The notes under the pieces: generated by a model | What the model was told of the DNA's origin: nothing | Database searches by the model: none | What the model saw: the letters and a program-made list of their open reading frames with translations, nothing else | Source of the DNA: Ignavibacteria bacterium | Lineage (GTDB): Bacteria > Bacteroidota > Ignavibacteria > Ignavibacteriales > Melioribacteraceae | Assembly: GCA_009773205.1 (NCBI GenBank) | Contig: WPAE01000031.1 | Coordinates: 1-45,399, forward strand | DNA: 45,399 nucleotides | Reading direction: 5' to 3' | Shown here: piece after piece, positions 24,739-41,268 of the stretch | How the letters are laid out: every line of letters starts with the position of its first letter | How positions within the stretch are numbered: the stretch's first letter is position 1 | Position numbers and translations under genes: made by a program

Positions 24739-27700
24739 CTATGAAAAAATCCTTTGAAGAACTTCAATAATTTTATCGCGAAGCAAAGGTTTGGAAATAA
24801 ACTCTGTAAAACCAGCAGCAATAAAACTATCTCTTGCATCAGGCTGAACATAAGCAGTTGAAGCAATCACTGGTATATCTTTGTAACCAGGCATACGTTG
24901 AATAATGCGGAGAGCATCAAGTCCATTGTATTCACCCTGCAGATTAATATCCATTACAATAAAATCGAATTTTTTAGTTTTAAGAAGCGGTAAAGCGGAT
25001 TCGAAGCTAACAGCAAACTCTAAAGATTTAAGGTCCTTCATCTGCACTTTGAACAACATCTGAGAATCAAGCTGGTCTTCGAGATACAAACAACTTAGAG
25101 TAGAAAGCTCTAATGATTTCGCACTATCAACAGCAGGTTTAAACAGTGGAGTTTCTGTTTTAATAGCAGGTATAATTTCAAACTTTTTGCTTTGCTTGTT
25201 TAAAGTATTTTCTTTTTTCTCTATAGATTCAATTTCAGCGTTAAGAGATTCACCAATAACGAACTTTAGAGGGAACAACAAAGCAAATTCTGAATACTCT
25301 CCACCTTTAGTAATTATTTCTTTCTTTACCGAAAGGAGATCAATCAATTTTTTAGCGAGTTTAATTGAGAACCTAGAGAACCCGTAATTTCTGCGAATCA
25401 CATTATCGTCATCCGAGAAAACTTCGTTGAATGTTTTTATTAAATATTGAGAAATACCGCCTGTCAAATCTTTGACTCCGACAGCACAATAGTTTTCTTG
25501 ATATACAGATGCAGATAAATAAACCGACTTTTCTTTTGTTATTTGTATAGCAAACTTTATGAACAAACTGAGTAAATAAATGAATTTTTGTTTATCGGTT
25601 TCAATTGTAAGAGATGAGGATATTTTACCATAATTTAATTCTATCTTCTTGCTTTCTGCTGTCTTTTTAGTCTGTTCTTTTAATTCATTCAATAAATCTA
25701 CAAACGTTATTATTTCAGGGCGAAACTTTATAACTTTTTGTTCTAATGTAGAGTACTCAACTGCGTTATCCATTATTTGAAGAAGAAGTTTTTGGTTTTC
25801 TTTAATTATATCAATTGCTTCTTTTTGTTCTTCGTTCGGAGATTCGATGCTATCGCCTAATTCTTGAGTAAACCCTAGAATCACATTTATAGGCGTAAGA
25901 ATTTCGTGAAACATATTTGATAGGAATGAGGCATCAATTTTATCTGAAGTATCTTCTTGCGTGTGCTGTAAATCTTTTACGGCAGCGGGCTCTTCTAATA
26001 ATCTAACGATAATGCTAAAAGAATCAACTTCGCCTGTATAGCTTTTAATTGGAGTTGCAATTAAAGCAGCTTTCTGAAAAGAACCCGAAGGTTTTTTAAA
26101 GTCAACTTCAGAACTAACCGTTTTCAAAATTCCGGAGTGGAAAATATTCTTGTTAATTGCTGCTCTATCATCATCGCTTAAAAGAGAAATTATTGGTCGC
26201 CCTTCCAATTCCCTTTTTGGATAGCCAAGTTTTTTAATTGCAACTTCGTTCACATCTTTAACAAAACCATCTTTATCTGTAATAATCAAAAGCTCGGAAG
26301 TATTCTCATAGAGTGATTCAAGGAACTGCCGTTTTTTCTTTTCCTCAATATTCTCACTCACATTTCTAACAAGGTTCAAATGTGCCTGGTGTTCTTTAAA
26401 TTCGATAGAAGTACGTCTTAATTCTACGTAAACAGAAGTACCATCACTTTTCTTGTGCCTCCACGGTCCGGTAAAAGATCCGGAAGGTGCTTTCGTATCG
26501 GAAGTTTCAATAAGCGTTTGAATATCTTCCGGCGCGTACAAATCTGTTAAATCCATGTTAAGAAAATCTGTGCGTTTGTATCCATAAAGTTTTAACGCAT
26601 GGTTATTCACTTCCAAGAAACGAAGATTTTCGATATCGTAAATAAACATTGCTTCCGGAGAATGCTCTATTAAAGCATCGTACATATTGGCTTTGACTTC
26701 TAACTGCGAATCTTTTTCTAAAACCGGGACCAACACTACCTGTATTAAATCCTCCAACTTGTGCACAATTCTTATCAGCTTAACTACGCATTTTAGGTTT
26801 CCTCTTTCAGCAAATAAATAATTAAATGTAGTTTCGCCGGTTATGCTCCTATCCTTTCTCATTACCTCTACTTGATCGAGAAAGTTTTTTTCAAAAATTT
26901 TAATAGCATCTTTACCTACTAAATTTATTTGTTCGCCTAGAGACAAAAGCTTAAGTAATTCTACCGAATGAGAAACGATCTTGTTTTCATTATTTAACAA
27001 AAAAATTGGAAGAGGCAGAGTTGAATAATTTGGATTAGTTGTTACTTCACGAGTAATTGTTTTATGTACTTGTTCCTTCTTAGAAAAGCCAATTATTGCA
27101 ACGACGTTATTATCAAGATCAGAAAGCGGTAATTCGATAAGTGATAAACCAACAAAGCTGCTGCCAATTCCAGCTCCGGAAATATTTTCGATAGTGATTG
27201 GGTTTGTTGTACTCTTTACGTAAGAATCCAGTGTTGCATAGATGTCTGTAAGATATTTTGGCAAAACATCAGCTTCATTCTTGTTTTCCAACTGAATTGT
27301 TTTATATCCTAAAGCTGCAGCATATTTATCATTTATTAATAAGAGCTTTCCTTCTACATCTTTTAACCAAAAATATTCTTCTATGTCATTTATCTCTTTC
27401 TGAATCTTTGCTTTTTCGATAAAAGAAAAAGGGAATGACAATTTTATCCGTTCGATTATGCTGGGAATTTTAGAATCGGGTGACAGCATATCTAAATCTA
27501 TTGAAGCTACTTTGAATTTTTTTGTTTCAGTCTTTGTTTGTGTACTCTTATCTTCATCAAAAATTATATTAAAGTAAAGATTATTTTCGCTTTTTAGCGG
27601 AGTAATAATTACTTCGAACGAAATAGTTCTATCTTTAGTTACAAGATCAAATTTATCTGTAACAGTTAAATCATTTCTGCGTGCTTCGGTGAATAATTTT

Positions 27701-27879
27701 GAAAGAGTTTTTGTTTCTTCGGTGTTAAATTGTTCGAGAAAATTTGAATGCGGAGTTAAAGATGGCACAAGACTTCTTAGAGCAGCGCTTAAAGCAATAA
27801 CGCGCCCAGTTTTATCAACAATCATAGACCGAATGGATTCTGGACTGATTGTCTCTATCGTTGCAAAATCGTCTATCAT
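24739..27879 (-). CDS. Multi-PAS hybrid sensor kinase, degenerate ATPase domain, C-terminal receiver
   Basis: A 1046-aa cytoplasmic protein from ATG 27879 (a TTG at 27909 would add ten residues). About five PAS domains are visible, for example DVEGKLLLINDKYAAALGY, AMFIYDIENLRFLEVNNHAL and LLIITDKDGFVKDVNEVAIK. A HisKA-like helix keeps the phospho-acceptor His (NMFHEILTPINVILGF). The following ATPase domain lacks the N-box Asn (FIYLLSLFIKFAIQI) and glycine-rich G2 box (NYGFSRFSIKLAKKL), so ATP binding is doubtful. The C-terminal receiver is intact: acidic LYLEDQLDS, phospho-acceptor in FIVMDINLQGEYNG, and Lys in EFISKPLL. No membrane segment is seen. It may be a signal-integrating pseudokinase that is phosphorylated by another kinase. 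It starts 16 nt after the Fn3 lipoprotein gene at the end of the exopolysaccharide block. Confidence 0.85.
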   Translation of the reverse strand: MIDDFATIETISPESIRSMIVDKTGRVIALSAALRSLVPSLTPHSNFLEQFNTEETKTLSKLFTEARRNDLTVTDKFDLVTKDRTISFEVIITPLKSENNLYFNIIFDEDKSTQTKTETKKFKVASIDLDMLSPDSKIPSIIERIKLSFPFSFIEKAKIQKEINDIEEYFWLKDVEGKLLLINDKYAAALGYKTIQLENKNEADVLPKYLTDIYATLDSYVKSTTNPITIENISGAGIGSSFVGLSLIELPLSDLDNNVVAIIGFSKKEQVHKTITREVTTNPNYSTLPLPIFLLNNENKIVSHSVELLKLLSLGEQINLVGKDAIKIFEKNFLDQVEVMRKDRSITGETTFNYLFAERGNLKCVVKLIRIVHKLEDLIQVVLVPVLEKDSQLEVKANMYDALIEHSPEAMFIYDIENLRFLEVNNHALKLYGYKRTDFLNMDLTDLYAPEDIQTLIETSDTKAPSGSFTGPWRHKKSDGTSVYVELRRTSIEFKEHQAHLNLVRNVSENIEEKKKRQFLESLYENTSELLIITDKDGFVKDVNEVAIKKLGYPKRELEGRPIISLLSDDDRAAINKNIFHSGILKTVSSEVDFKKPSGSFQKAALIATPIKSYTGEVDSFSIIVRLLEEPAAVKDLQHTQEDTSDKIDASFLSNMFHEILTPINVILGFTQELGDSIESPNEEQKEAIDIIKENQKLLLQIMDNAVEYSTLEQKVIKFRPEIITFVDLLNELKEQTKKTAESKKIELNYGKISSSLTIETDKQKFIYLLSLFIKFAIQITKEKSVYLSASVYQENYCAVGVKDLTGGISQYLIKTFNEVFSDDDNVIRRNYGFSRFSIKLAKKLIDLLSVKKEIITKGGEYSEFALLFPLKFVIGESLNAEIESIEKKENTLNKQSKKFEIIPAIKTETPLFKPAVDSAKSLELSTLSCLYLEDQLDSQMLFKVQMKDLKSLEFAVSFESALPLLKTKKFDFIVMDINLQGEYNGLDALRIIQRMPGYKDIPVIASTAYVQPDARDSFIAAGFTEFISKPLLRDKIIEVLQRIFS

Positions 27880-27895
27880 GTTGTTCTCATATTGT

Positions 27896-29182
27896 TTAGA
27901 ACGGCCCAATTACATTAGAGTAAGCCGAATAGGTTTTTGACGAAGAAGAAATTATTAACCTAACTCTGTACCTATTAATTGTCCGCGAATCAGCTTTTGT
28001 ATGTGTATAAACATTTGAAGTAGTAGATAAATTACTTGGTACGGTATCAATATTTGTAAAATTTAGACCGTCAGTACTCCATTCTACTTCAACATCGTAA
28101 TTGCTAGCAATGTTAGAAACTTCCCATTTAAAGAGAATATTGTTCAAACCACTCCTTCCTACAATAGCAAGTTTAGGCGCTGCAATATCTGTATAAGCTG
28201 TTGAAGCGCTTGCAATATTAGAATAAGGGCTTTTGTAGTTTGAAGTGAAAAAACGAATTCTGTAAGTGTAAGTTCCGTTTGCAGCAATATTATCAGAATC
28301 TTCGTACATAGTTGAATTAGGTGGAAGTACTTTTATTTGTTTAAAAGTTGTTGTAGCTGCATCCAACTTTTCGAGAATAAAACCGGATTCGTTTGGAACA
28401 AAATCTGTCCAAATTAACCGAATTAAACTGCTGCCAATTCCTTCAGCGCGTAGATTCCACGGACCGCCAGTTGAAGATTGCGGCGATGCTTCTTGGCTGA
28501 AATCAGAATATCCTGAGCCGTTGAATGCCCTAACTTTATAGTAGTATGCAGAAAATGAGGAAAGTCCAATATCTGTAGTACTTATTGTATTTTCTGTAAG
28601 AGATTTAATTCTTCTGTACTCAATTACACCGGTTGAGCCAATATCTTTTCGCCAAACTTCAAAACCTTTTTCGTTGCTGGAATTATCATCCCATATCAAA
28701 GTTACAGTAGAAGCAGAAGTAAAGCTTGCAAGTAAGTTAGATGGCGCGGTTGGCGGTTTATCTTTAATATAAACATTCTGTTGAACCTTGCTTACTTTTA
28801 ATTTTCCCTGCTTGTTATAAACAATCAAGTGGTAATTTATAGTTTTCCCTATCATTGTAGAATCAACAGTAATGTAGATAGCCGGATTAGTTCCGTCTGT
28901 ATTAACCGTAAACTTTTGTAAATAAATACCGTTGACGAACAATTCAAAGTGAGATAACCCTTGGCCGCCGGAGCCATCTAAAGCAGTGTAAAAGATGTTA
29001 TTTCTGCCAACAATAATTGTATCGTTAGTTTTGGGATATGCAATTTCAATAGAAGGAGTTGCGCTGGATGAAGATGTAGTATCTGAAAGAGATTCTACAC
29101 AAGAAGAAAAAAAAGCTCCTACTAAGAACAGGAATAAAACTCTAACAATTCCGGAGTGTGTAATTTTTGTTTTCACTTTCAA
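27896..29182 (-). CDS. Fibronectin type III lipoprotein
   Basis: A 428-aa predicted lipoprotein: MKVKTKITHSGIVRVLFLFL followed by VGAFFSSC with the lipobox Cys at residue 28, then a Ser/Thr-rich linker. The first domain (about 45-140) is Ig-like (IEIAYPKTNDTIIVGRNNIF). Three Fn3 domains follow, with typical strands APSNLLASFTSASTVTLIWD, NLRAEGIGSSLIRLIWTDF and APKLAIVGRSGLNNILFKWE. It is probably surface or periplasmic and may bind polysaccharide or scaffold the export complex; no catalytic motif is present. It sits between the deacetylase-like gene (122 nt gap) and the hybrid kinase (16 nt gap). Confidence 0.82.
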   Translation of the reverse strand: MKVKTKITHSGIVRVLFLFLVGAFFSSCVESLSDTTSSSSATPSIEIAYPKTNDTIIVGRNNIFYTALDGSGGQGLSHFELFVNGIYLQKFTVNTDGTNPAIYITVDSTMIGKTINYHLIVYNKQGKLKVSKVQQNVYIKDKPPTAPSNLLASFTSASTVTLIWDDNSSNEKGFEVWRKDIGSTGVIEYRRIKSLTENTISTTDIGLSSFSAYYYKVRAFNGSGYSDFSQEASPQSSTGGPWNLRAEGIGSSLIRLIWTDFVPNESGFILEKLDAATTTFKQIKVLPPNSTMYEDSDNIAANGTYTYRIRFFTSNYKSPYSNIASASTAYTDIAAPKLAIVGRSGLNNILFKWEVSNIASNYDVEVEWSTDGLNFTNIDTVPSNLSTTSNVYTHTKADSRTINRYRVRLIISSSSKTYSAYSNVIGPF

Positions 29183-29304
29183 TTCGTCTTTTTTCTTTAC
29201 AACAAAATAATAAAAACAGCTCGAGTTTACATTACAATAACTAATTTTTGTATGTTTTATAAGGATGTTTTCGGCTGGAAAAGAAATTGATTAACACATA
29301 ATAA

Positions 29305-31206
29305 TTACGCGCCAACATTTTCAAAATCGATAATTAGAGATCTCGTTTCGTGCGGTTCCATTTTATCAAGATAGAAGTAAATTATTTGTCCATCTTCGCT
29401 AAGGCTGTGTTTAGGAATCTTTGTATTAATCATGTCCGAAGAAACATCTACGTTTTTAACACGTTTGTTAAGATTAACCTGAACAACAAGCGCATCTGTT
29501 TTTTCGTTTTTCGGGTTATTTAGCTCAACTGCAATTCTGCGCTTGCTTCTTGGCTCATATCTTACTTCTACACTACCCTTACGATTCCACCAAGTTTGCA
29601 ATTCATTTAGAGAAGTTAGCCATAGTTTTTTACTCTTAGCATACTTAATAACATCTTTAATAACCGAAGCATACTGAGGCTGCAATTGATACTGAGAGTG
29701 AACCTTAAAGACAAACAGTCCACCTTCAAACAAAATTCTATCAACGTCCTCCTCATACGTATATCTTTGGAATTCCGTATTAACTAAACCGTAATTACGC
29801 ACAACTTCATAATCGTCTCTTGCTGTTTTTGTAATTATCATTATTGGTCTATTGTTTCTAAATCTCACTTCGGGCACAGAACGATCGGTAAGAGAATCAG
29901 TAACTAAGAATTCAAAACCGGTAGCGGACATAGCAAGAAGCGTATTATCATCATAATATCCGTTTAGAGGCATTAAAGCAGTAATTTTTTTACCACTTAT
30001 TTTGCTTAGAGAATCCGAAGCAAATTTAAGGCTTGCCGTTTGCACATCTTTAGAGAACAATTTGTTAATAGTGTCTTCGGGCGCTGATATGTAGCCAATA
30101 TCTTGAATAATTCCAATTTCACCATACTTAGCTAAAGATTTTACCAATTTCGGATTTTGCATCGCTAATTTAGGTTCAATAAAATAAGTAAAAGGAGTCT
30201 TTGAAGAGCCAAAAATATTGGCAATGTTCGAGGCATTATGTGGCTGCTCGATCATAGTTGGCAAAATCAGCATAGCGGCTTCGTATTGGTTAGGCCAATC
30301 CTTAACAAAAGCAGTTGGGTGATATACTAACCAATTAACAGAATTATTAAAGAGCCTTTCAAAGTTTATCCAATCTTTCTGCACGCCAATAACAGAATTT
30401 AACTCAAAGCCATACCAAACAAACCTTCCTTTGCCGTAAGTGCCAAAAGCTATACCCGCACTTTTCTGAATGCCTTCTCTAACAAGCCCTGCTTCTTTCC
30501 GGAAATCATACCAAAAACTAACCTGCGTTGTTCTTGGTTCTAATACTTCGGCATAAATCGGTCTATCCCAAGTAGCGATTTTTAAAGTATAACCAGTTGG
30601 AATTTGTGCAGTAAGCGGCAAATTACCACGAAGAGTATGAACTTTATAAGTTTCTTCTGGTTTAATTTCGCGGTTGAAATTCATACCGAAAACTTCTTTG
30701 AAGAAATCCCAACCTCTCCACTTTGCTTCATCGGAATAAGTAGCCGGACCGCCAGTTGAAAAAACACTACCACCATTTTCGATATAGCGCTTGAGATGCA
30801 TAATCTCTTTATCGCTAAGCGATTTCGCACCAGGCAGTACTATCAATTTATATTCGTAATGCTCTCCGCGTTCAATTGTTTGGTCAGAAATAATTTCATA
30901 ATCTAGCTTGGCATTTCTAATTCTTTCTTTCCAGCTGTTAACATTGTCTCTAAGCCAAGTGCTGCCTGGCTCTAACATATTTTCTGTGTACTTAGAATAA
31001 AGAATAGCAGCTTTTTCTTTTTTAACGGAGCTAAAGAAATCCAAATTCTGCTTAGATGGAATTATTTCTTTTATCTCGTAATTACCGTAAATATTTTTTA
31101 TGATTAAAAGAAAAACCAAAGCACCAGTAATTAGCAAAACCAATCCACTAAGGAAAATGATTAGATAATTGACCCTAAGTCCTTTTGCCGCTTCTTTTAC
31201 CGCCAC
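29305..31206 (-). CDS. Membrane-anchored GATase-like/deacetylase-fold protein, catalytically degenerate
   Basis: A 633-aa protein starting at GTG 31206 (GAGG 10 nt upstream), overlapping the preceding gene by 10 nt. One membrane helix (YLIIFLSGLVLLITGALVFL) is followed by a class I amidotransferase-like domain (about 60-280: YKLIVLPGAKSLSDKEIMHL, YIENGGSVFSTGGPATYSDE). Then comes a domain with the layout of NodB polysaccharide deacetylases (about 310-530), and finally a beta domain (EVRYEPRSKRRIAVELNN). The deacetylase motifs are lost: AAMLILPTMIEQ replaces the TFDDG strand, GEIGIIQDIGYI replaces the H-x-x-x-H pair, and MPLNGYYDDN the R-P-P-G motif; only the late His in FVFKVHSQYQ remains. 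It likely binds rather than cuts the polymer made by the adjacent GT2. Confidence 0.75.
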   Translation of the reverse strand: MAVKEAAKGLRVNYLIIFLSGLVLLITGALVFLLIIKNIYGNYEIKEIIPSKQNLDFFSSVKKEKAAILYSKYTENMLEPGSTWLRDNVNSWKERIRNAKLDYEIISDQTIERGEHYEYKLIVLPGAKSLSDKEIMHLKRYIENGGSVFSTGGPATYSDEAKWRGWDFFKEVFGMNFNREIKPEETYKVHTLRGNLPLTAQIPTGYTLKIATWDRPIYAEVLEPRTTQVSFWYDFRKEAGLVREGIQKSAGIAFGTYGKGRFVWYGFELNSVIGVQKDWINFERLFNNSVNWLVYHPTAFVKDWPNQYEAAMLILPTMIEQPHNASNIANIFGSSKTPFTYFIEPKLAMQNPKLVKSLAKYGEIGIIQDIGYISAPEDTINKLFSKDVQTASLKFASDSLSKISGKKITALMPLNGYYDDNTLLAMSATGFEFLVTDSLTDRSVPEVRFRNNRPIMIITKTARDDYEVVRNYGLVNTEFQRYTYEEDVDRILFEGGLFVFKVHSQYQLQPQYASVIKDVIKYAKSKKLWLTSLNELQTWWNRKGSVEVRYEPRSKRRIAVELNNPKNEKTDALVVQVNLNKRVKNVDVSSDMINTKIPKHSLSEDGQIIYFYLDKMEPHETRSLIIDFENVGA

Positions 31207-31697
31207 CGTAAATTATCCTCTTGCTTTCGCTCTTGTTTCGATGGTTCAACATAGCCTTCGTTAGTATAGCGCATAAATTTGCCTTTAGCAGCTTTTCTTT
31301 CCTGTTCATATTGCTTAGGCTGTTCGCCTGTTGCTCTTTGATAGCGAGTTTCGCTATACTGAGAAGGAGCGTTACCAACAAAAGTTGGACGAAGTTCCGG
31401 TCCCCTGTTATAATCTTCTTGAGGAATATATGTTTGCTGTCTCTGCTGCTCGTAAGAATATTCTTGCTGCGGGAGATCAAAAGTTTTTCTATCTGAAGCC
31501 GGAGTAACAATTCTCTGTTCAGAAACAAGCGGTGCAGGCGCTACTAATTCAGCCGGAATTGCCGATGGCTGCGGAGCCGAAGAAGTCATACCTTTTCTTT
31601 CTCTAATCTTATAAAGAATGTAAGCGCCAACCGATAGCATAAAAGTAGAAATGGTTGCTACTAAAATGATTAACGAAAGGATTGGAATAAGTTCCAT
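31197..31697 (-). CDS. Single-TM protein with disordered Gln/Pro-rich tail
   Basis: A 166-aa protein with an N-terminal membrane helix (LIPILSLIILVATISTFMLS) and then a low-complexity, Gln/Pro/Tyr/Arg-rich tail (YSYEQQRQQTYIPQEDYN, RATGEQPKQYEQERKAAK). No family is recognised. It lies 22 nt after the GT2 gene and overlaps the deacetylase-fold gene by 10 nt, so the three are one translational unit. Small membrane subunits beside GT2 synthases (PgaD, BcsF-like) assist the synthase; the same role is inferred here from size, topology and position, without sequence similarity. Confidence 0.7.
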   Translation of the reverse strand: MELIPILSLIILVATISTFMLSVGAYILYKIRERKGMTSSAPQPSAIPAELVAPAPLVSEQRIVTPASDRKTFDLPQQEYSYEQQRQQTYIPQEDYNRGPELRPTFVGNAPSQYSETRYQRATGEQPKQYEQERKAAKGKFMRYTNEGYVEPSKQERKQEDNLRWR

Positions 31698-31719
31698 TTT
31701 AAGCCTCTAACTTTAATTT

Positions 31720-33138
31720 TTATTTAGCGCCTTGCGGCGATACTTTACTTCCACTTTGTGCAAACCCTGTTCTTTCAAGTTTACCCCAAGTCATACTTAC
31801 ACCTAAAAATTCTTCTACAGTAGCCATTGCTTTTGTAACATCAATTAGCAAAATAAAGATCATACGATAAATAATAGCGTAAGGTACTAATCGAAATTCT
31901 TCTTTTTCGGCGGCAACACAGTAAACGGCAGCCATTAAATCTAAAACTGCAATTCCTATCCACCAAAGAAAAATAAAGCTGGACATTCCATAAAAAATGG
32001 CTACAACAATAAAATATAGGTTCACAAAAATATTCATTGCCGGCCATATTAAAGCTTCATAAAACATCTGCCAAAGAATAACACTATTATTAAAATTTAA
32101 TGTTGGATTAATTAAATACTTTTTATGTTTTCTGATAGCTTGTAAAATTCCGCGGGTCCAACGGTATCTTTGCTTTAGTAATTGGTACACAGTAACTGGA
32201 GCTTCTGTAAATGCAATTGCATTCGGCTCATAAATAATCTTCCAGCCTGCGGCAAGAATTTTGAGAGTAACATCTGCATCTTCGGCAAAAGTATCGCTTG
32301 AATAAAAACCAGCATCCTTAAAAGCAGCTTTTCTAAAAATGCCTATTGGTCCGGGAATGATATTAACCATTTGCAAAAACCCCTGAGCACTACGAGCCAT
32401 GTTCAGACCTTCGAGATATTCTAAGGCTTGCAAATCTGTAAGAATTTTTTTTCTATTCTGCACCTTAACATTTCCGGCAACGGCACCAACAGCGGGATCA
32501 ATAAAATGACGAACCGCCATTTTCAAAGTGTTTTCGCTTAACTGAGAGTCACCATCCATACATAAAACAAACTGAGCTTCTGAGTATTGAATTCCGGCAT
32601 TAAGTGCTTTCGCCTTACCACCGTTTGGCTTATTTATTAACGAAACTTTTACTAATCCAGAAACTCCTTTTTGATAACCAACCAAAGTATCGGCTACTGC
32701 GGCAGTATCATCAGATGAACCATCATTTACAATTATTATTTCGTAATTAGAGTAGTTTATTTCTAAAAGAGATTGTATAGATTCTCTTATTACTTTACCT
32801 TCATTGAACACAGGGACTATAATTGAAACAAAAGGATAATAGCCCGACTTTTCTTCGACCGTATATCTGGTTATATAAAAATACGCCATAAATAAAGTGG
32901 CAAAATATCGTATCAAAAGGATGAAGAGAAATATAACTAGCGATACAATTGAAGAATAAACGAAAAGTCCGCTCCAGCTAAGAACCGTAAGTGGCAATGT
33001 TAAAAAAATTGTAATGATTAAGAAAAGGGAAATAACGCCCGAAACGATAATAGTTCTAAGTTTTTCGCTGCCTACATCTCTTTTAGGCGGCTTAAGCTCT
33101 CTATTATCCAACGCTATTTGATATCTCTGTTTGCTCAT
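31720..33138 (-). CDS. GT2 processive glycosyltransferase (PgaC/IcaA-like exopolysaccharide synthase)
   Basis: A 472-aa inner-membrane synthase. Two membrane helices at the N-terminus (about 25-85) precede the GT-A domain (FVSIIVPVFNEGKVIRESIQ; IIIVNDGSSDDTAAVADTL; DxD in VLCMDGDSQLSENTL; catalytic Asp region SDTFAEDADVTLKILAAGW; QxxRW in LLKQRYRWTRGILQAI). Three or four helices follow. All processive GT2 signatures are present, so the enzyme should be active. The absence of a PilZ domain argues against BcsA; similarity in layout is to PgaC/IcaA, but the sugar cannot be read from sequence. It is followed closely by the single-TM protein and the deacetylase-fold protein. The upstream gap 33139-33393 has no gene and could hold a promoter. 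Confidence 0.92.
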   Translation of the reverse strand: MSKQRYQIALDNRELKPPKRDVGSEKLRTIIVSGVISLFLIITIFLTLPLTVLSWSGLFVYSSIVSLVIFLFILLIRYFATLFMAYFYITRYTVEEKSGYYPFVSIIVPVFNEGKVIRESIQSLLEINYSNYEIIIVNDGSSDDTAAVADTLVGYQKGVSGLVKVSLINKPNGGKAKALNAGIQYSEAQFVLCMDGDSQLSENTLKMAVRHFIDPAVGAVAGNVKVQNRKKILTDLQALEYLEGLNMARSAQGFLQMVNIIPGPIGIFRKAAFKDAGFYSSDTFAEDADVTLKILAAGWKIIYEPNAIAFTEAPVTVYQLLKQRYRWTRGILQAIRKHKKYLINPTLNFNNSVILWQMFYEALIWPAMNIFVNLYFIVVAIFYGMSSFIFLWWIGIAVLDLMAAVYCVAAEKEEFRLVPYAIIYRMIFILLIDVTKAMATVEEFLGVSMTWGKLERTGFAQSGSKVSPQGAK

Positions 33139-33393
33139 GATTTTATTTATAACTTACAACACTAAGAGGCAAAATGAATGCCATTTTAAAATCATTAATT
33201 ATTCACATTTTTCTACTTTATTCACTTTAATAAATGTCCCATCAGTAAACACTACTTGATGAATGCATCATTAAGAAACAATTTCGCAATTAATATAAGC
33301 GAAATATTAAATTATTGCAAGAAAATAGGTTAAGAAACAAATCTAAAGCATAAGTACAAGCAAAAGCCGTAAATCCTTTTTATTTATCAGTTC

Positions 33394-34674
33394 CTATTTT
33401 CTATATTTTGAGTAGGTATCCATTATTGCATCGTACAAAAATCCAGCTACTTTTGAGCCGCCAAGCTGCGTAAAGTGGGCATAATCTTTTAAAGCTAATG
33501 GTGGGGATGCATTTACCCAATCATTCATCGAATTTTTACCGCCCATCATTTCCGAAAGATTCCAAAATGTTATGCCTGTTTTATCTGCAATTTTTTTCTG
33601 TGCTCCGATGAGCATTAGAACATCCGGATTAGTTACAAACCGAGAGCCTACTTTTTGAGTGCGGTCTGACGAACTAATTAGCAAGAAACTTGTATTTGGA
33701 AAGGCTTTTTGGTACTTCTTTATAACATTAACCATTTTGTGTTCGTAAACGGTAAAAATTCCTTTGTTAGGGGAAGATACGTTAGCACCGTAAGAAAGTA
33801 TAATTAGATCATAATGTAATTTCTTGTTAAACTGTTCTAATAACGCTTCTGGAATATCAGCTAACGATGCCCCCGAATTGCCGCGCATCGGGAAATTATC
33901 TATATAGACCCCATTGCCAGATGTTTCCAGACTAACGCCGTAAAAAGAAGGACTTGCACCTGACAAAAACTGCATATAGAACTTTTTAGAATTTCCTTTA
34001 GTCTTTATTACTAATTCATTCAAGCTGCTTCCTGGTTCAAGCACTAGCTTAATCTTTTCACCATCATCAATCGAGTAATGAATAGTAGAATTTTGATCGG
34101 CATTAGAATAGTAAATCTTTACAATATTGAATTGAGAGGAAGATTTATAGATCGAATTTGTTTCATACTTTACCCAGCTGCCTGCTTTTGGTATTGCCAA
34201 AGCGCCGGAGATACCAAGCGGCAATTGGTTCGGATTTCTGGTGAGAAATGAGTAATAAGTCCAATCACTAGAATATGTGTGAATTGTAGTAACTCTCATT
34301 CTGTTATCATCTGAAACAATATTAAGCATGCCAGCGCCCTGCCCGCCAAATTTTTGCTGAAATTTTTCTCTTAGATAATCTGTAATAATATCACCGAGAA
34401 TTAATGAATCGCCATAATGAGCAATTCTAACTGAATGAGTTCGAGCATTATTTAATGCTTCAAAAAAATAATTCATCTGAGAAATAGTTCCGGAAAGCTG
34501 AGTAAACTTTCCAATAGCTTGAAAAACCGGTAAAGTTAAGTTATCCGCGTAGGCTATTTCGAGACTGAGACTGGCATTAAACTCTTGCGATGTCTTCATT
34601 TCGAGGTTTTTTGAAAATGTATCTGCCCAAATAAGAGTAATCAATGCAGTAACAACGGTTGTACTTAACTTCAT
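33394..34674 (-). CDS. Secreted SGNH/GDSL-type hydrolase
   Basis: A 426-aa protein with an N-terminal signal peptide (MKLSTTVVTALITLIWADTF). An SGNH core is visible: block I IAHYGDSLILGDIITDYLRE, an oxyanion Gly in FPMRGNSGASLADI, block III LIILSYGANVSSPNKG, and block V LALKDYAHFTQLGGSKVAGF with the D-x-x-H pair. A beta insertion (about 150-260) separates blocks I and II. Such enzymes add or remove acetyl groups on extracellular polysaccharides. Its location between the TPR/barrel gene (59 nt) and the GT2 gene (255 nt) fits O-acetyl editing of the exported polymer; substrate is inferred. Confidence 0.8.
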   Translation of the reverse strand: MKLSTTVVTALITLIWADTFSKNLEMKTSQEFNASLSLEIAYADNLTLPVFQAIGKFTQLSGTISQMNYFFEALNNARTHSVRIAHYGDSLILGDIITDYLREKFQQKFGGQGAGMLNIVSDDNRMRVTTIHTYSSDWTYYSFLTRNPNQLPLGISGALAIPKAGSWVKYETNSIYKSSSQFNIVKIYYSNADQNSTIHYSIDDGEKIKLVLEPGSSLNELVIKTKGNSKKFYMQFLSGASPSFYGVSLETSGNGVYIDNFPMRGNSGASLADIPEALLEQFNKKLHYDLIILSYGANVSSPNKGIFTVYEHKMVNVIKKYQKAFPNTSFLLISSSDRTQKVGSRFVTNPDVLMLIGAQKKIADKTGITFWNLSEMMGGKNSMNDWVNASPPLALKDYAHFTQLGGSKVAGFLYDAIMDTYSKYRK

Positions 34675-34733
34675 GCTAACCTTTTTTTGGATTGCTTAAC
34701 TAAAAAATAATTTGGGAAAAAGTAAAATGATAA

Positions 34734-37700
34734 TTAAAATAGATTCCAGTATGCAGACAATGCACCATTAAAACTTCGATATCCTGAGCCGTACCGGAAA
34801 CTGTTTCCATAAGTAGCTGTTGCAGAAATAATTAAATTTTGAATTGGATTGTAAACTGCTTCTCCAAAAATTTCGCTTATAACAAAATCTACAGCCGGAG
34901 CGTATCCAATTTTGCCGCCTGCTTTAAATTTCCATTCTTTCTTATACTCGTAATCATATTCCGTCCAAATACTATGAGTTGCGTAATCTTGCGGCGAGTA
35001 GTAATAAACCGAGTTTGCCGCATAATCCGAGAAGAAGTACTCATAGCCAAACATTCCGAAACTCAAGAATCTTCTTCCCAATCTTACTATAAAATCATTT
35101 CCTTTGTTGCGGTCCGAAAGGTTAAAATATTGATAGTAAGTTTTAAACAATGCAAGGTTTTTCACGTTGTAGTAAAAGTTGAGCCTATAAACATCAGCAG
35201 TCATTCTGTTGTAAAACATATTTGGCGAGTATAAAAACAATCTTGCATCTGTATTCTCAAAATTAGCGGATAGCAAAATTTCATTTTGTTTCTCATACTT
35301 TATAGTTGCATCCCAAACTCTATAGTTCGGTTCTCCAGGTGTGTTCATTTTGCCATAAGTACCGCCAATAGAAATGAAACGAGTAAAATAAATTGAAACA
35401 GCGCCTTTAAGCTGCGTAAAATCTTTTGTTAGAGCTATGTTGTTGAGCCTAGTTTTATTCCAAATTAAACCAAGATTTAAGAAACCAATAAAACCTGCAT
35501 CGGCACGAATGCCATAATTCCACAAACGAAATTTCTGGTTATCTGCATAAAAATTACCAAATGGAGAAACGCTGATATTTGTAGGAATAAAAAGATTGAA
35601 AAAGCTCTGAATGCTGCTAAATCCCTTGCTGAAGCCCGATGGAGGCAGCCATTTAATTCTCTGGTTAATTTTATTTACTATTGAAGTATCGGTAACAGTT
35701 TCTAAAAGTGATTTGTAAGTAGAGCGTGCATCTCCGTAGTCTTCATTCTGCACATAAGCATCACCTAAGAAAAGTATCTTTTCATTTAGATCATAAACTA
35801 AAACTGTGTCTGTAATTTTTGTCTGAAGATTTTCAAAAAGCTCCTCAGCAAGTTCAAACTCTTTATCTTGAGTCATTAGATAGCCCATATAAGTTTGCCT
35901 CTTGTAAAGGTCGTTCAACATTTCCGGCTCGGTTATTCTTTTTTCGAGTTTCTCAAATTCTTCTACAGCTAAATCATATTTTTTGTCAGCAGCGTACGTA
36001 TCAGCAAGAAAAATATATCTTTGTTCTAATTGTTGTTTAATCTCTTGTGAAGTAGTATCAGTATCCAACTCGCGATAAATCCGAGTTCCCTTTTCGTATT
36101 TCTTAGCGTCAATATAATTTCCGGCTAAGAACAACAACTGCAGGTTAATGTCATTCTTTTCAGCAGTGCTAACAGCTTTCATTTTCAGTTCACGATAAAT
36201 GCTCTCAGCACCTTCGAGCCGGTTAGTTGCGGCGTATGTATTAGCTAAAAATAATCTTGCTTGATCATCCTCGGGGTTCATTTTTTCTAAACTTTCAAGT
36301 TCAGTACGGGCTTTGGTTGTATCGTTATTTAAGAAGTAATTTTTAGCTCTAAGCAATGCAGCTTCATAATCAAATCCATCTTTTATTATTTCATCGTATA
36401 ACTCAATTGCACGTTTATATTGAAGTGCACATGTTGCAATTTCGGCGTATTCAATTTTTTCTTCTCGTGTTAAACTTTTTCTTTTTTCAAAATATTCATC
36501 ATATTTAGCCAACGCATCAACACAGTTTCCTTCCATAGAAAGTTTACCAGCTTCTCCGCGTATTTCGAAAAGCTTAGTTTCATCATCAGCTTGCTGCCGC
36601 AGTTGGAAAATGCTTTCCATGTTTGCAACTTCGGGATTGTTAGGAAAGTAGCTTACCAGCTCATCTAAATATTTCTTGCCTGCTGCAAAATCTTTTCTCC
36701 AAGTGTGAAGATTAACTAAAGACAACAATGCCTCTAAGTTTTTAGGGTTTGAATCGTGAACCTCATTAAGATATTGTTCGCCAAGCTCTAAATCGTTCAA
36801 GGTCCAAACCGCTATTTGTCCGCGTAAGAGTTTGTAATCGGAGTTATTAGGATCAAGCTCTAACAATTTATCCAATTGCGAAATTGATTTTTCCCACTCA
36901 TAATTCCAAGCTGAATACTTTGCATACTTAAACCGTACATCTAAATCTTGGTCTTCAGGAACATACTGCAAATACTCATTTAAGATTTCGATAGCGCTAT
37001 CGTAATAAAAAAGATTAGCGTAAGCATCTGCTAATTTCACAACTGCATCTTTATCCGATGGATTATTCTTTAGTAATTCTGTGTAGTGGTCAACATCTTT
37101 ATTAAAAGTACTGTCGCGATAATCGGAAACAAATTTGAAAACAGTCTTAAACCTCTCTTCATCAGCATATTTAGGCTGAAGATATTGTAGCTGCTGAAAT
37201 GCTTCTTCATACCGAGAATTTTTAACTAACTCATTGAGTAAATCGAAGCGAATATCATCGTCATCTGGATTCTTTTCTAACAATCTGTAATATCTATCAA
37301 TTGCATATTCTTGAGAAGCAGGGTCTCTTCTATCTCTGCCAATATCAATATTTAGATAAGGCTGCCGGCGTGCTAAATCTAAACCATCTTCTGCTTCTTC
37401 AAAAAAAGGTTTAATACTAAGTGACTTTCTAAAAGCATCTTCTGCAGCTTTATTTTTACCAAGCCATAAAGTAAAATAACCGTATCGGCTCCATAATCTC
37501 CAGTCATTCGGATAGCGAGTTACATACTTTTTAAGTATTCTTTCTCCTTTTACAATGGAACGTGTTTTAGCTAAGATAATTGTGTATCTAATAATTTCGT
37601 CAGGAGAAGCATTATCATCTCGTTTTAAGTATTCATCGTACCATTGTTCAGCATCGTACCATTCTTCAAGCCAGCGGTAAGATTTTCCAATCTCCAAATA

Positions 37701-38090
37701 AGTAAAAGCATTATTTGGGTCAACTGCTAAATCTCTTTTGTGTCCTTCAATTTTTTGATAAAGCTGCTTGTGCCAAACCGCAGTAATTCTATCTAAATCA
37801 GAACGAACTTTAGCATCTTTTGGAGAAAGTCTCAATGCTCTTCGCAAATCAAAAACAGCGTCCCAATACTGAAGGCGCTGTTCAAAGCATAATGCTCTTA
37901 AATGGTATCCATCAGGCAAGCGTGGATTGGCAGTAATATACTTATTAAACTGATCGATGGCTTCACCAAATCTGCCATCATTCATTAATACCTGTCCTTG
38001 ACGTTTCATTTCATCGTTACGGCTTTGAGCAAAAAACAACCCAGCCGATAGAACAGCAAGAATAAAAATTATTCTAAGGTAAGCCCTCAT
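34734..38090 (-). CDS. TPR scaffold with C-terminal outer-membrane barrel (PgaA/PelB-type architecture)
   Basis: A 1118-aa exported protein. The signal peptide is MRAYLRIIFILAVLSAGLFF. Residues 25 to about 840 are tandem TPR helices (GRFGEAIDQFNKYITANPRL; YYDSAIEILNEYLQYVPEDQ; EYDLAVEEFEKLEK-like units). The last about 270 residues alternate in beta-strands rich in Tyr/Phe/Asn (LWNYGIRADAGFIGFLNLGL; YYNVKNLALFKTYYQYFNL) and end in ...GALSAYWNLF, the C-terminal aromatic signal of outer-membrane barrels. The same TPR-then-barrel plan exports PNAG (PgaA) and Pel (PelB). It is coupled to the ATPase gene upstream by a one-base overlap (TAATG). Confidence 0.88.
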   Translation of the reverse strand: MRAYLRIIFILAVLSAGLFFAQSRNDEMKRQGQVLMNDGRFGEAIDQFNKYITANPRLPDGYHLRALCFEQRLQYWDAVFDLRRALRLSPKDAKVRSDLDRITAVWHKQLYQKIEGHKRDLAVDPNNAFTYLEIGKSYRWLEEWYDAEQWYDEYLKRDDNASPDEIIRYTIILAKTRSIVKGERILKKYVTRYPNDWRLWSRYGYFTLWLGKNKAAEDAFRKSLSIKPFFEEAEDGLDLARRQPYLNIDIGRDRRDPASQEYAIDRYYRLLEKNPDDDDIRFDLLNELVKNSRYEEAFQQLQYLQPKYADEERFKTVFKFVSDYRDSTFNKDVDHYTELLKNNPSDKDAVVKLADAYANLFYYDSAIEILNEYLQYVPEDQDLDVRFKYAKYSAWNYEWEKSISQLDKLLELDPNNSDYKLLRGQIAVWTLNDLELGEQYLNEVHDSNPKNLEALLSLVNLHTWRKDFAAGKKYLDELVSYFPNNPEVANMESIFQLRQQADDETKLFEIRGEAGKLSMEGNCVDALAKYDEYFEKRKSLTREEKIEYAEIATCALQYKRAIELYDEIIKDGFDYEAALLRAKNYFLNNDTTKARTELESLEKMNPEDDQARLFLANTYAATNRLEGAESIYRELKMKAVSTAEKNDINLQLLFLAGNYIDAKKYEKGTRIYRELDTDTTSQEIKQQLEQRYIFLADTYAADKKYDLAVEEFEKLEKRITEPEMLNDLYKRQTYMGYLMTQDKEFELAEELFENLQTKITDTVLVYDLNEKILFLGDAYVQNEDYGDARSTYKSLLETVTDTSIVNKINQRIKWLPPSGFSKGFSSIQSFFNLFIPTNISVSPFGNFYADNQKFRLWNYGIRADAGFIGFLNLGLIWNKTRLNNIALTKDFTQLKGAVSIYFTRFISIGGTYGKMNTPGEPNYRVWDATIKYEKQNEILLSANFENTDARLFLYSPNMFYNRMTADVYRLNFYYNVKNLALFKTYYQYFNLSDRNKGNDFIVRLGRRFLSFGMFGYEYFFSDYAANSVYYYSPQDYATHSIWTEYDYEYKKEWKFKAGGKIGYAPAVDFVISEIFGEAVYNPIQNLIISATATYGNSFRYGSGYRSFNGALSAYWNLF

Positions 38091-39352
38091 TAACCAATAT
38101 ATTTATTCAACGGTTGATAGCTTTGAGAGGAAGAATCTACGGATAAAACTGTTTCCATTAAGATTTCTGCATTCTCAAATCTTTCATTTACTTCCTGGTT
38201 AAATATAGAAATGAATTCTAAAACTGCATTGATGTAATTAAGATCTTTGTTTGGCAAGTTATTCTGTACATTGCTCATAAGGTCAACCACACTTTTCATG
38301 TTTCCTCTTACAAGCAATACTACAATTTTATTTTCTACTACACAAATTTTGTCTTTTTTAGATGTAGATAATCTTATTGCATTTTGAAGCTGCCCCAAAT
38401 TTAGTAATCCTCTCATCTGTGCGGTTGCATCCAGCTTAAATGAAATTAAATTAAAAGTTTGCCCAGTGCTTTTATACAACGCAATTTGGTTGTTCAAGAT
38501 GAGTAAGAAATCATTGAAATTATAGATATTAGAAAATGCATAAGGCTCGGATGGCATTTCAATTTTAGTTTGAGCATTAAAATTTCTGCTTTTTACCAAA
38601 CGAGGTGTTTCTTCAAATGTTTGCGTGCTCAGCCTATCCGGCGAAAACTCTGTAGTTACTCCCTTATTAGGTTCAATTCTGTAATCACTAACAAACTCGC
38701 CTTCTGTGTGCCCAACATTTGGAGAAATTATTACCTGTCCTGTATGAAACCGCTCTCCCCTTGTTGCCGTTTCCTTTTTTAGCATAATTGTTCCGGTTAC
38801 AAATTGAGATAATCCTTCAACAATATTTTGAGCTTTTTGGGTAGCCGGCTCACTAATAATGAACATACTTGTAATATCACGTTCTTCTATATTTTCAAGC
38901 GTTCTCAAAAAAGTATCACGTAAGTAGTCAAGATTCTTGAACCCAACAAAAGGAGTCAGCTCATCAAAAATAATTCTTGCTGGGCGGTACTGATCTACAA
39001 CAGTAATTATATCATGAAAATATTCTACTAAATAATCATCTGGATTGTACATATCGTAAATTTCATTTGGCGGAGCTACTCTAACAACAATAATCAAGTT
39101 TTGATTCATGTAAGATTGAATATCGAAGTTGAGTGAAGCGGCTTGAATCATCAAATCTTTTGGACGCATCAAAGTGAAATACAAACATACTTCTGTGGAT
39201 TTAGCAGCTTCTAATGCGGACTGTAACCCTAATAAAGTTCTGCCGGATTTTCTTGGTCCAACAATCATGTAACTTCCGCCTCGATAAATACCTCCCCAAT
39301 TTTTATCAATTAAGGAGAATCCTGAAGTTATTCTTTTGATTGAACTGCTCAT
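38090..39352 (-). CDS. KaiC/RecA-like ATPase with altered Walker A and GGDEF-like tail
   Basis: A 420-aa cytoplasmic protein. Residues 1-235 form a KaiC-family RecA domain: ITSGFSLIDKNWGGIYRGGS, Walker A GPRKSGRTLLGL, FTLMRPKDLMIQAASLNF, Walker B ARIIFDELTPF, and TSMFIISEPATQKAQNIVEG. The invariant Walker A lysine is replaced by Arg (GPRKSGRT), although a Lys sits three residues earlier. Residues about 280-420 follow the strand/helix order of a GGDEF domain (FNLISFKLDATAQ, LNLGQLQNAIRLSTSKKDKI, then CVVENKIVVLLVRG where GGDEF would be), with no catalytic residues left. A nucleotide-sensing regulator of polymer export is a reasonable guess. First gene of the block; overlaps the TPR/barrel gene by one base. 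Confidence 0.8.
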   Translation of the reverse strand: MSSSIKRITSGFSLIDKNWGGIYRGGSYMIVGPRKSGRTLLGLQSALEAAKSTEVCLYFTLMRPKDLMIQAASLNFDIQSYMNQNLIIVVRVAPPNEIYDMYNPDDYLVEYFHDIITVVDQYRPARIIFDELTPFVGFKNLDYLRDTFLRTLENIEERDITSMFIISEPATQKAQNIVEGLSQFVTGTIMLKKETATRGERFHTGQVIISPNVGHTEGEFVSDYRIEPNKGVTTEFSPDRLSTQTFEETPRLVKSRNFNAQTKIEMPSEPYAFSNIYNFNDFLLILNNQIALYKSTGQTFNLISFKLDATAQMRGLLNLGQLQNAIRLSTSKKDKICVVENKIVVLLVRGNMKSVVDLMSNVQNNLPNKDLNYINAVLEFISIFNQEVNERFENAEILMETVLSVDSSSQSYQPLNKYIG

Positions 39353-39500: not shown

Positions 39501-41162
39501 TTACTTTTTTGAGATTGCTCTAAAGACAAAAATAGCAGTTGCATTCCCTGTAATTGTTGGCTCGTTTGTTATATAGTCATTTCTATCATCACGGTAATAC
39601 GAATCTGATGTCTGAAATCTCGCATATTTATCGTTCTTATCTAACGGCATATTAGCTTTATCTACTAATTCTTTAGCTGCAGGACCTGCAGAAAAGCCGC
39701 CCGGCAGCCTTCCTTTGAAGTGAGCAACTTGATGATGAAAATTTCTTGTGTAATTTTTACCATACCCATTTATAAAACTTACTCCCCATTGGTTTCTGCC
39801 TAAAATATAATCGCGCGAAAATGAATCTAAAGAATCAAAGCGCGCATCGTTTGTTAATTTTTTAAAGAGAATATTTTGCAAAGAAATACCAAGCAAGGTT
39901 ACATTAGTGCCCCAGCTAAGAGAAACTCCTTTACCAAAAAGATTATCATTTTTTTTACGGTTAAATTCCTCCAAATTCAATTTAATGTAATCTGAATATT
40001 TTGGTATGATTTTAGCTAAACGGTAATGAGCTAAAGAATTAATATTACCCCAGCTCCACCAAAGATCAGGCCCGGCTAAATCTGCAAATGCTGCTGCATC
40101 ATTCAAATAATTATTTTTGTTTGTAGAAAGGTATAATTCTACAGCGCCTAAAGCCATCTTTCCTTCGTAAGATTTATCTAAATAAACGCCGGTGCCGCTG
40201 CTATCAACATCGGGCACTGTTTTATGAATCGAATACAAATTTTGAGCAGCATTAAGACATTGATTAGCAAATTCCGGGTAATTCAATTTTGTGCTCCAAA
40301 TTCTGTAAGCCAATGCCATTGTAGCCGAGTAAATTCCAATTAGATTCTTCCCGATACCAAGAAATGCAGGTCTATCATAGCCAACGGCATCATTTTCGGG
40401 CAATCTCCAGCCAACACCTTGATCGCGCAAATCTTGTACTTGAGTTACAAGTTTGTTCTTATCGTAATAAGCGCGAAGCATCCAATCCAATCCTATTTTA
40501 GCTTCTTCTAAAATATCAGGCACATTGTTTTTGTTTTTATCGCTAGAAAATTTTGTCTTATCAAATTCATAAGAGAAAAGCAGCATATAAGTAGAAAATG
40601 CAGTAGTATTAAGAAACTTCACATAATCGCCGGCATCATGCCAGCCGCCGGTTACATCAATTTTTTTATTTATAATCGTTTCGCCGTCAATCAGTTGAGC
40701 GGCATCTGAGATATGGCAAACTTCGTGTAAGAATGGATTTGTGTAACCACACCGCTGAACTTTGAAAAACCCCAACAAAGAATCTGCAATTCCGTTATAA
40801 ACATTTTCTCCAATTTTGAAACTAAAAGTTTTTTGACTTGAGTATTGAAAATAATATTCACCCATTTTTTTAAGCGCAGTAAAATCAATTCTGTACGAAA
40901 AAGAAAAATTGCCAAATCTGCCTAAACTTTTTCCAAACTTATAATCATTAACATTTTGATTGCTGCGAATGCTTTTAATGCTGATCTTTTTTCCTTCTAA
41001 CGAATGCGAAGATAAGATGACAGCAGATTTTATGTCAGAAGGTAAATATCCAACTTGATTAAAACGAATAAATATTTCCGGCTCTGCTTTAATGCTCGGC
41101 TGGCAGTTTGCTATAACAAATGTTAGTAGAACCACAATAAACAAGAAATATTTTTTAGACAT
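39501..41162 (-). CDS. Glycoside hydrolase family 9 (endoglucanase-type) lipoprotein
   Basis: A 553-aa exported enzyme. The N-terminus MSKKYFLFIVVLLTFVIANC gives a plausible lipobox Cys at residue 20. An Ig-like CelD_N domain follows (about 30-115: IFIRFNQVGYLPSDIKSAV), then the alpha/alpha-6 barrel of GH9: catalytic-base region VTGGWHDAGDYVKFLNTTAF, NNVPDILEEAKIGLDWML, LGRNQWGVSFINGYGKNYTR with HHQVAHFKGRLPGG, and the acid Glu in DDRNDYITNEPTITGNATAI. All key residues are present. GH9 enzymes cleave beta-1,4-glucans. It may degrade external cellulose or trim the polymer of the neighbouring exopolysaccharide block; the 148-nt gap before that block makes co-transcription possible but not certain. 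Confidence 0.92.
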   Translation of the reverse strand: MSKKYFLFIVVLLTFVIANCQPSIKAEPEIFIRFNQVGYLPSDIKSAVILSSHSLEGKKISIKSIRSNQNVNDYKFGKSLGRFGNFSFSYRIDFTALKKMGEYYFQYSSQKTFSFKIGENVYNGIADSLLGFFKVQRCGYTNPFLHEVCHISDAAQLIDGETIINKKIDVTGGWHDAGDYVKFLNTTAFSTYMLLFSYEFDKTKFSSDKNKNNVPDILEEAKIGLDWMLRAYYDKNKLVTQVQDLRDQGVGWRLPENDAVGYDRPAFLGIGKNLIGIYSATMALAYRIWSTKLNYPEFANQCLNAAQNLYSIHKTVPDVDSSGTGVYLDKSYEGKMALGAVELYLSTNKNNYLNDAAAFADLAGPDLWWSWGNINSLAHYRLAKIIPKYSDYIKLNLEEFNRKKNDNLFGKGVSLSWGTNVTLLGISLQNILFKKLTNDARFDSLDSFSRDYILGRNQWGVSFINGYGKNYTRNFHHQVAHFKGRLPGGFSAGPAAKELVDKANMPLDKNDKYARFQTSDSYYRDDRNDYITNEPTITGNATAIFVFRAISKK

Positions 41163-41236: not shown

Positions 41237-41268
41237 AAAAAAAGGGTCACAAAAAGTGACCCTTTTTT
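41237..41268. terminator. Strong bidirectional-looking terminator
   Basis: AAAAAAAGGGTCAC, loop AAAAA, GTGACCCTTTTTT is a perfect hairpin flanked by A and T runs on each side. On the minus strand it ends the transcript of the type IX cargo gene and the 30-aa gene and lies about 75 nt upstream of the GH9 start. Confidence 0.92.

Follow-up and report, generated by a model that had tools for sequence, protein, structure and literature searches.

The 45,399-nt stretch of Ignavibacteria bacterium DNA analysed here (GCA_009773205.1, contig WPAE01000031.1), hereafter the window, carries a conserved run of minus-strand genes that, as judged from sequence and predicted structure, probably encodes synthase-dependent production of an exopolysaccharide, as a variant of pga/bcs/pel-type systems. 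A preliminary description of this DNA had proposed such a synthesis and export system; its GT2 synthase motifs, TPR protein and conserved gene set uphold the general proposal, whereas the deacetylase, kinase and KaiC-like parts do not stand as written. The eight open reading frames (ORFs) named there were confirmed, every one on the minus strand, together with their tight spacing: the KaiC-like and TPR genes overlap at 38090, a gap at 31697/31720 separates the GT2 gene from that of a single-transmembrane (single-TM) protein, and the latter overlaps the deacetylase-fold gene at 31197-31206. The longest kinase-like ORF (TTG start) overlaps the Fn3 lipoprotein gene by 14 bases, and the earlier coordinate 27879 fits an internal ATG start. 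The limits of the cluster required revision, since the genes from 24739 to 39352 do recur together but the cluster begins one gene earlier, with a GH9 glycoside hydrolase gene that belongs with it because it recurs in 32 of the 40 loci compared (Table 1). Additionally, the protein families expected earlier were recovered in part: Pfam and NCBIfam place KaiC (E 5.8e-21), TPR, GT2, fn3 and PAS/HisKA/receiver above cut-off, and in Pfam SGNH (23.1 vs 32.9 bits) and deacetylase (18.4 vs 23.1 bits) fall below it.

Conservation across the order provides the broadest evidence. An orthologue of the GT2 gene occurs in 49 of the order's 58 genomes, a count that includes the genome of the window, at 64-91% identity in the relatives. 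Members of the order among the matches bear names such as Stygiobacter (S. electus being one match), Melioribacter, Melioribacteraceae and Ignavibacterium, and many are metagenome-assembled genomes. Forty of these 49 loci were fetched, and gene counts refer to these 40; as the loci are centred on GT2, its own 40/40 is true by construction. At tblastn E 1e-5, matches were obtained for the GH9 gene in 32 loci, KaiC-like in 34, TPR in 34, SGNH in 18, single-TM in 40, deacetylase-fold in 40, Fn3 in 38 and kinase-like in 39, and under stricter settings (E 1e-15, 40% coverage) the corresponding counts were 30, 34, 31, 18, 39, 40, 37 and 38. Where present, the genes keep their orientation and order. 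A chance neighbourhood was rejected, given that each of 12 other window proteins used as controls was found in 0/40 loci (E 1e-15, 40% coverage), against 18-40 of 40 for the cluster genes. Alignments were made from subsets of the sequences (A1, 34; A2, 28; A3, 28; A6, 30; A7, 17; A8, 21), and motif counts cover the window protein and all proteins extended from tblastn matches, some of them clipped by contig ends.

Equally informative is the distribution of the KaiC-like gene, which was found at E <= 1e-100 in 51/58 genomes of the order, namely in 49/49 GT2-positive genomes versus 2/9 GT2-negative ones, the latter being G002 (77% complete) and G007 (a divergent form). Among the other GT2-negative genomes, six (G003, G018, G022, G024, G048 and G054) gave no match at E <= 1e-20, and G009 holds a short form (E 3e-41). 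The six fetched loci without the gene either stop at contig edges (L048, L058) or carry other genes in its place (L050, L056, L057, L062), and in every case the genome has it on another contig; four of these distant places were read, each showing the arrangement GH9-KaiC-TPR. The two halves of the cluster are truly separate in G036, G038 and G043, and in G040 each half stops at a contig edge, where the two could be contiguous. G007 also presents a reduced variant (L198, G007:C30:46068-47363 and neighbours) with a KaiC-like gene, a 507-aa TPR-family protein, a weakly GT2-like protein of 449 aa and a kinase-like gene, the single-TM and deacetylase-fold genes being absent from the stretch read.

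Beyond the order, 395 genomes of the phylum were sampled, in which the deacetylase-fold protein was found in 50 at E <= 1e-35, with two more weak partial matches. All 50 possess the KaiC-like protein at E <= 1e-80, and three sampled genomes (G007, G087, G224) have the latter without the former. Other orders of the same class were not represented among the matching genomes listed for either protein. Of the 50, 13 belong to other classes, and in 10 of these the KaiC-like, TPR, GT2 and deacetylase-fold genes stand together in the same order, including G392, where the KaiC-like gene is cut by the contig end; in G184 and G294 pieces of the cluster sit at contig ends, and in G147 no TPR gene lies upstream of the GT2 block and the KaiC-like gene is on a separate contig of 3,961 bases. 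The co-occurrence of ATPase, TPR, GT2 and deacetylase-fold genes that the preliminary description called for is strong within the order, and further families of the phylum show it as well. A recognisable single-TM protein is encoded in 8 of these 13 genomes, and in the remaining five its place is taken by another ORF, or one that was not recognised, about 146-336 aa long; for the Fn3 protein a single weak match was obtained outside the class (E 4e-6, opposite strand, L210). In out-of-class clusters the deacetylase-fold gene often has a more divergent tandem companion of the same fold (L182, L183, L184, L186, L187, L191, L211 and others). KaiC-like/GGDEF-like genes also occur without the rest of the core within the 20 kb read at L203 (G087), L204 (G224) and L205 (G375), and at L204 a distant kinase-family match (E 1.2e-9) lies about 5 kb away. 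A plasmid collection queried with an out-of-order KaiC-like protein gave no match.

The synthase, a protein of 472 aa without a PilZ domain, has the motifs NDG, DGD, ED and QRYRW in 41/41 rows, corresponding to the D, DxD, ED, QxxRW signature of membrane GT2 synthases. By hhalign it is nearest PgaC (33% identity, E 1.5e-38) and next nearest BcsA, and it reaches 209.1 bits against the PgaC NCBIfam model, half of the cut-off of 422.3. At its N-terminus the neighbouring single-TM protein is nearly invariant (consensus MELIPILSLIILVATISTFILAVGAYILYK), and a W-R/K is conserved at its C-terminal end. The C-terminal region of the TPR protein looks like an outer-membrane barrel: the protein ends in Phe, and a terminal F, Y or W occurs in 23/32 homologues longer than 700 aa. 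Its match to the PgaA model is weak (34.7 of 366.65 bits).

In the GH9 protein the catalytic residues are kept, the Asp pair of DAGD in 30/30 spanning rows and the NE pair in 32/32, with gaps in 3/33 rows at the first motif and 1/33 at the second. Its solved relatives are mostly endoglucanases acting as beta-1,4-glucanases, which mildly hints at a beta-1,4-linked chain in the order; the GH9 family also holds enzymes acting on other substrates. The SGNH hydrolase retains its GDS, GxN and DxxH residues in 19/19 rows. A loose lipobox pattern, in the generally known form of that motif, was seen in the first 50 residues of 24/38 homologues of the Fn3 lipoprotein.

The model of the deacetylase-fold protein, built from 28 sequences (pLDDT 85.4), comprises a TM helix and then three domains: GATase1/GH42M-like, NodB-like and beta-sandwich. 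The first two of these were assigned by structural match and the last, beta-rich one by secondary structure. The NodB part matches the deacetylase 3rxz (VIA Z 26.1, root-mean-square deviation (rmsd) 2.5, 238 residues), and the first part matches GH42 5e9a (VIA Z 21.6, rmsd 3.1, 206 residues) as well as 3RHT (Z 18.2, rmsd 3.0, 202 residues); structural matches further include BA3943, a known pseudoenzyme of CE4. Foldseek ranked NDST1 first (545 columns, rmsd 11.2) and PelA 9cgy fifth (701 columns, rmsd 16.7), multi-domain matches that, at such rmsd values, speak for domain order only. Agd3 is composed of the same three domains, the first being nearest the GATase1-like 3RHT (PMC7229062). CE4, CE18 and CE21 enzymes rely on an Asp-His-His metal triad (PMC12022489 and PMC13254593), and an AlphaFold model in the former paper places the equivalent domains of PelA on the TPRs of PelB. 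This triad was not recovered here: H503 is the sole His kept at 90% in residues 300-545 (41 rows), falling by reading of the alignment at the place of the last motif, and the metal-binding histidines were not seen in the out-of-class copies either, in at least the part of the alignment inspected. Since these histidines are missing, the protein is probably not a deacetylase, and a role as active polysaccharide deacetylase was rejected. The acidic residues D437, D464, D465, E486, D487 and E494 are invariant and may line a groove. We infer a non-catalytic, PelA-like protein that would act in docking or in guiding the glycan.

The KaiC fold expected by the preliminary description was borne out for residues 1-240 of the KaiC-like protein, which match KaiC 7s65 (Z 27.1, rmsd 2.5, 217 residues) and the archaeal FlaH 4yds (Z 23.7, rmsd 3.4, 222 residues). 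The designation as an ATPase needs qualification, as Walker A has Arg in place of Lys in 30/35 rows (Lys in 5/35), with the Walker B D-E kept in 35/35, and a second, C-terminal domain is present; in the sequences from outside the class little of Walker A and B remains. This C-terminal domain (275-420), which follows a linker, has a GGDEF-like topology by reading of the model (pTM 0.56), and GGDEF, GGDEF_2 or PelD_GGDEF matched 4/6 C-terminal domains at E 1.7e-4 to 0.068, all below cut-off, suggesting a probable degenerate GGDEF type. NCBIfam cut-offs for KaiC proteins with two KaiC domains are far above the scores obtained (51.1 vs 408 and 26.1 vs 546.25 bits), and a circadian clock was rejected on these scores. 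The KaiC-like part had been regarded as unusual, yet it has a precedent in BcsE of the E. coli cellulose system (PMC7439463). The N-terminal, RecA-like part of BcsE was modelled on KaiC, domains of REC-like and GGDEF-like type come after it, and BcsF brings BcsE to the membrane. The likeness to BcsE is one of layout, and membership of the BcsE family is unsupported by sequence here: PF10995 matches were all below cut-off, the best being that of L198 (E 7.4e-5, 22 of 25 bits) and otherwise 0.043, in 1/14 and 2/34 members. In structure searches with the KaiC model, BcsE was absent among the 50 best rows of each list, which the KaiC domain fills, so that residues 241-420 were not probed.

The PAS, HisKA and receiver domains of the supposed multi-PAS hybrid kinase were confirmed, with the phospho-acceptor H668, the receiver D987 and the receiver Lys kept in 30/30, whereas the motifs of the ATP site are lost: the N-box Asn and the glycine motif (G-box), in the form generally known for kinases, are not kept. 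HATPase_c was matched in 11/30 members (best E 7.1e-6), the window protein reaching E 0.086 (13.7 of 26.4 bits). The protein may act in phosphate relay or as a pseudokinase. In G009 the shortened KaiC-like gene and a kinase-like gene persist as a pair without the remaining cluster, which weakly supports a joint role of the two proteins.

In bacteria, synthase-dependent polysaccharides are usually switched by cyclic-di-GMP. PilZ was absent from 12/12 genomes tested at E <= 0.001, a control search registering in 5/14. PF00990 matched 58 places (35-65 bits) in 57/58 genomes of the order, and 21 of the places were read: none of the 20 that align, all to one protein family, has GG[DE]EF, and the remaining one, another partial match in G012, lacks it as well. 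For most genomes of the order, PF00990 matches a single protein, about 620-650 aa long, judged by eye to be TM-GAF-GAF-GGDEF-like and having a degenerate GGDEF in the 20 aligned (L213 in G000:C444, L214-L225, L227-L233), which we take to recall PelD in layout. Five out-of-class genomes were tested too: a canonical GGDEF protein is present in G228, and the other four gave no PF00990 match at E <= 1e-5; three of these (G136, G181, G087) nevertheless have RxxD in the KaiC-like protein. Because PilZ is absent from all 12 genomes and the GGDEF motif is lost in all 20 aligned proteins, control of the cluster by cyclic-di-GMP appears unlikely, with EAL and HD-GYP domains not searched; given this negative evidence, the resemblance to BcsE probably has to do with assembly or gating.

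No gene-for-gene match to a named operon was found among the systems compared, in agreement with the earlier expectation. The cluster shares with E. coli Pga a PgaC-like GT2, a TPR exporter (putative here), a NodB-fold periplasmic protein and a small membrane protein beside the synthase, but hhalign with single E. coli sequences revealed no PgaB or PgaD counterpart, the NodB metal site is lost, and GH9, SGNH, Fn3 lipoprotein, KaiC-like and kinase-like genes are added. With the type II Bcs system of E. coli (BcsE/BcsF) it has in common a RecA/KaiC-like part joined to what is probably a degenerate GGDEF domain, a short membrane protein, a hydrolase of cellulase type and a TPR exporter (putative here); unlike that system, its synthase is PgaC-like without PilZ, no BcsB appears among the Pfam matches of the cluster proteins, hhalign gives no link to E. 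coli BcsE, and no intact GGDEF motif exists in the 20 aligned proteins of the order. PelA (CE21) and Agd3 (CE18) display GATase1/ThuA-like, NodB-like and beta-rich domains in the same order as the deacetylase-fold protein, and PelA too works beside a TPR exporter; the protein described here differs in the absent His of the metal triad and in its N-terminal TM anchor, and no partner of the GH114 type was found among the Pfam matches. The Pel counterpart of the synthase is PelF, in whose place a GT2 stands here. KaiC and FlaH, finally, are alike in the fold of residues 1-240 and unlike in that the present protein has one KaiC domain, mostly Arg in Walker A, a different C-terminal domain and a polysaccharide cluster as its setting.

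Altogether, these features are consistent with a mechanism in which the GT2 and the single-TM protein would polymerise a beta-linked glycan and extrude it through the inner membrane, after which the membrane-anchored PelA/Agd3-like protein, presumably no longer a deacetylase, would hold or guide the chain and dock it to the TPR exporter. GH9 would trim the glycan, the SGNH hydrolase, where present, would edit acyl groups, and the putative barrel would release the product, while the Fn3 lipoprotein would play an accessory part. On the cytoplasmic side, the KaiC-like/GGDEF-like protein could serve as a BcsE-like assembly or gating factor whose input would not be cyclic-di-GMP and, in this order, would probably arrive via the neighbouring PAS protein, which could carry phosphate on His and Asp, probably without self-phosphorylation.

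Several observations weigh against this reading. The genomes are related and hence not independent samples, and the SGNH gene recurs in fewer than half of the loci; at L055 (G031) the KaiC-like gene directly adjoins GT2, with TPR and GH9 absent from the 13.5 kb contig. Outside the class, GH9, SGNH and kinase homologues were undetected in the cluster stretches of the 13 genomes. The barrel call rests on sequence and aromatic C-termini, and the TPR matches to PgaA and BcsC span the TPR repeats only, a widely matching repeat. The GGDEF-like assignment depends on model topology and below-cut-off matches: the window's own C-terminal domain has no GGDEF-family Pfam match, no GGDEF family appears among the 25 families listed for 34 members of the order, a profile of the domain against PDB sequences returned two weak unrelated matches, and hhalign of the KaiC-like protein with E. 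coli BcsE gave no relationship.

Among the alternatives, the PgaC-like synthase could make a beta-1,4-glucan resembling cellulose, or else a chain that contains glucosamine, and GH9 could trim it as BcsZ acts on cellulose. This is a special case of the exopolysaccharide reading and a possibility, if a doubtful one; the presence of GH9 with its catalytic residues in most loci, and its endoglucanase relatives, favour it, whereas the GT2 is nearer PgaC than BcsA, the GH9 family includes enzymes with other substrates, and GH9 is undetected in out-of-class clusters, where the polymer may differ. A PNAG (pga) system producing poly-beta-1,6-GlcNAc would account for the PgaC-like GT2 and the TPR exporter; the synthase score well under the PgaC cut-off, the lack of PgaB and PgaD counterparts, the lost metal site of the deacetylase fold and a linked hydrolase whose solved relatives are mostly beta-1,4-glucanases make it quite improbable.

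Likewise quite improbable is a system under cyclic-di-GMP control in which the GGDEF-like domain binds the messenger at its I-site, as in BcsE or PelD, and turns the synthase on. The BcsE-like layout (PMC7439463), RxxD at the expected I-site in 6/9 proteins from outside the order, the BcsE-family match of L198 and the canonical GGDEF protein of G228 point towards it, whereas the I-site R is missing in 34 sequences of the order, PilZ is lacking throughout the genomes tested, no GG[DE]EF was present at the 21 PF00990 places read of 58 (EAL and HD-GYP not searched), and the RxxD-bearing G136, G181 and G087 are without a PF00990 match. The division into two independent neighbouring operons, GH9-KaiC-TPR and GT2-TM-deacetylase-Fn3-kinase, draws on the separated halves of G036, G038 and G043, on other genes upstream of GT2 in G012, and on the out-of-class G147 with its GT2 block lacking an upstream TPR gene and its KaiC-like gene on another short contig. 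The genomes with split loci nevertheless retain both halves, the KaiC-like gene accompanies GT2 in every GT2-positive genome of the order, and outside the class the four core genes mostly stand together, so that two independent operons are highly improbable.

Within the exopolysaccharide reading, a further proposal is put forward tentatively: the cluster may represent a distinct class of synthase-dependent secretion whose PilZ/cyclic-di-GMP switch has been replaced by three parts, namely a KaiC-type ring linked to a degenerate domain of GGDEF-like type, a PelA-like periplasmic protein without catalytic activity and a phosphorelay protein with a dead kinase, the lineages concerned having lost cyclic-di-GMP synthesis. 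No description of this cluster was found in the literature searched, which included few subscription papers. A well-conserved system with a regulator of BcsE-like layout, in genomes giving no sign of cyclic-di-GMP production in these tests, would show either how a polysaccharide switch can be diverted to another input or what role BcsE-like proteins have besides messenger binding. Furthermore, a GH9 gene in this lineage may serve polymer export, which calls for caution in annotation; GH9 genes of Melioribacter roseus are listed as possible cellulose-degrading endoglucanases (PMC3534657).

Table 1. Genes and other features of the candidate exopolysaccharide cluster (window coordinates)
Feature	Coordinates	Strand	Basis
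Terminator-like hairpin with T-run, upstream of GH9, possible cluster boundary	41238..41268	-	consensus match only
GH9 glycoside hydrolase with CelD_N domain, probable polymer trimmer	39501..41162	-	Glyco_hydro_9 E 3.3e-74
KaiC-like protein, putative cytoplasmic regulator/scaffold	38090..39352	-	KaiC/RecA-like 1-240 and C-terminal domain 275-420
TPR protein with barrel-like C-terminal region, putative exporter	34734..38090	-	TPR families, TPR_19 E 1e-31
SGNH/GDSL hydrolase, optional member	33394..34674	-	Lipase_GDSL_2 below cut-off, catalytic residues present
Processive GT2 synthase	31720..33138	-	GT2 E 4.8e-31; best NCBIfam model PgaC_IcaA
Single-TM protein (TM by eye), putative synthase partner/recruiter	31197..31697	-	variable tail, conserved C-terminal W-R/K
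Deacetylase-fold protein: membrane-anchored GATase1/GH42M-like, NodB-fold, beta-sandwich	29305..31206	-	PelA/Agd3-like layout, metal site lost
Fn3 lipoprotein	27896..29182	-	fn3 E 6.2e-7
Multi-PAS hybrid kinase-like protein, no TM by eye	24739..27909	-	PAS, HisKA, receiver above cut-off

Sites such as the hairpin at 41268-41238 were no commoner in the scan than in shuffled sequence. Directly upstream of the cluster, at 41410-44907, lies a gene for a large protein that combines Fn3/Ig domains with a C-terminal tail of the type IX secretion kind; it recurs in 1/40 loci. Elsewhere in the window, cas1 (630-1799) stands beside a CRISPR array at about 2216-4600 with 37 repeat copies at a period of 63-68 bases, and an AbiEii-type nucleotidyltransferase gene occupies 5842-6393.

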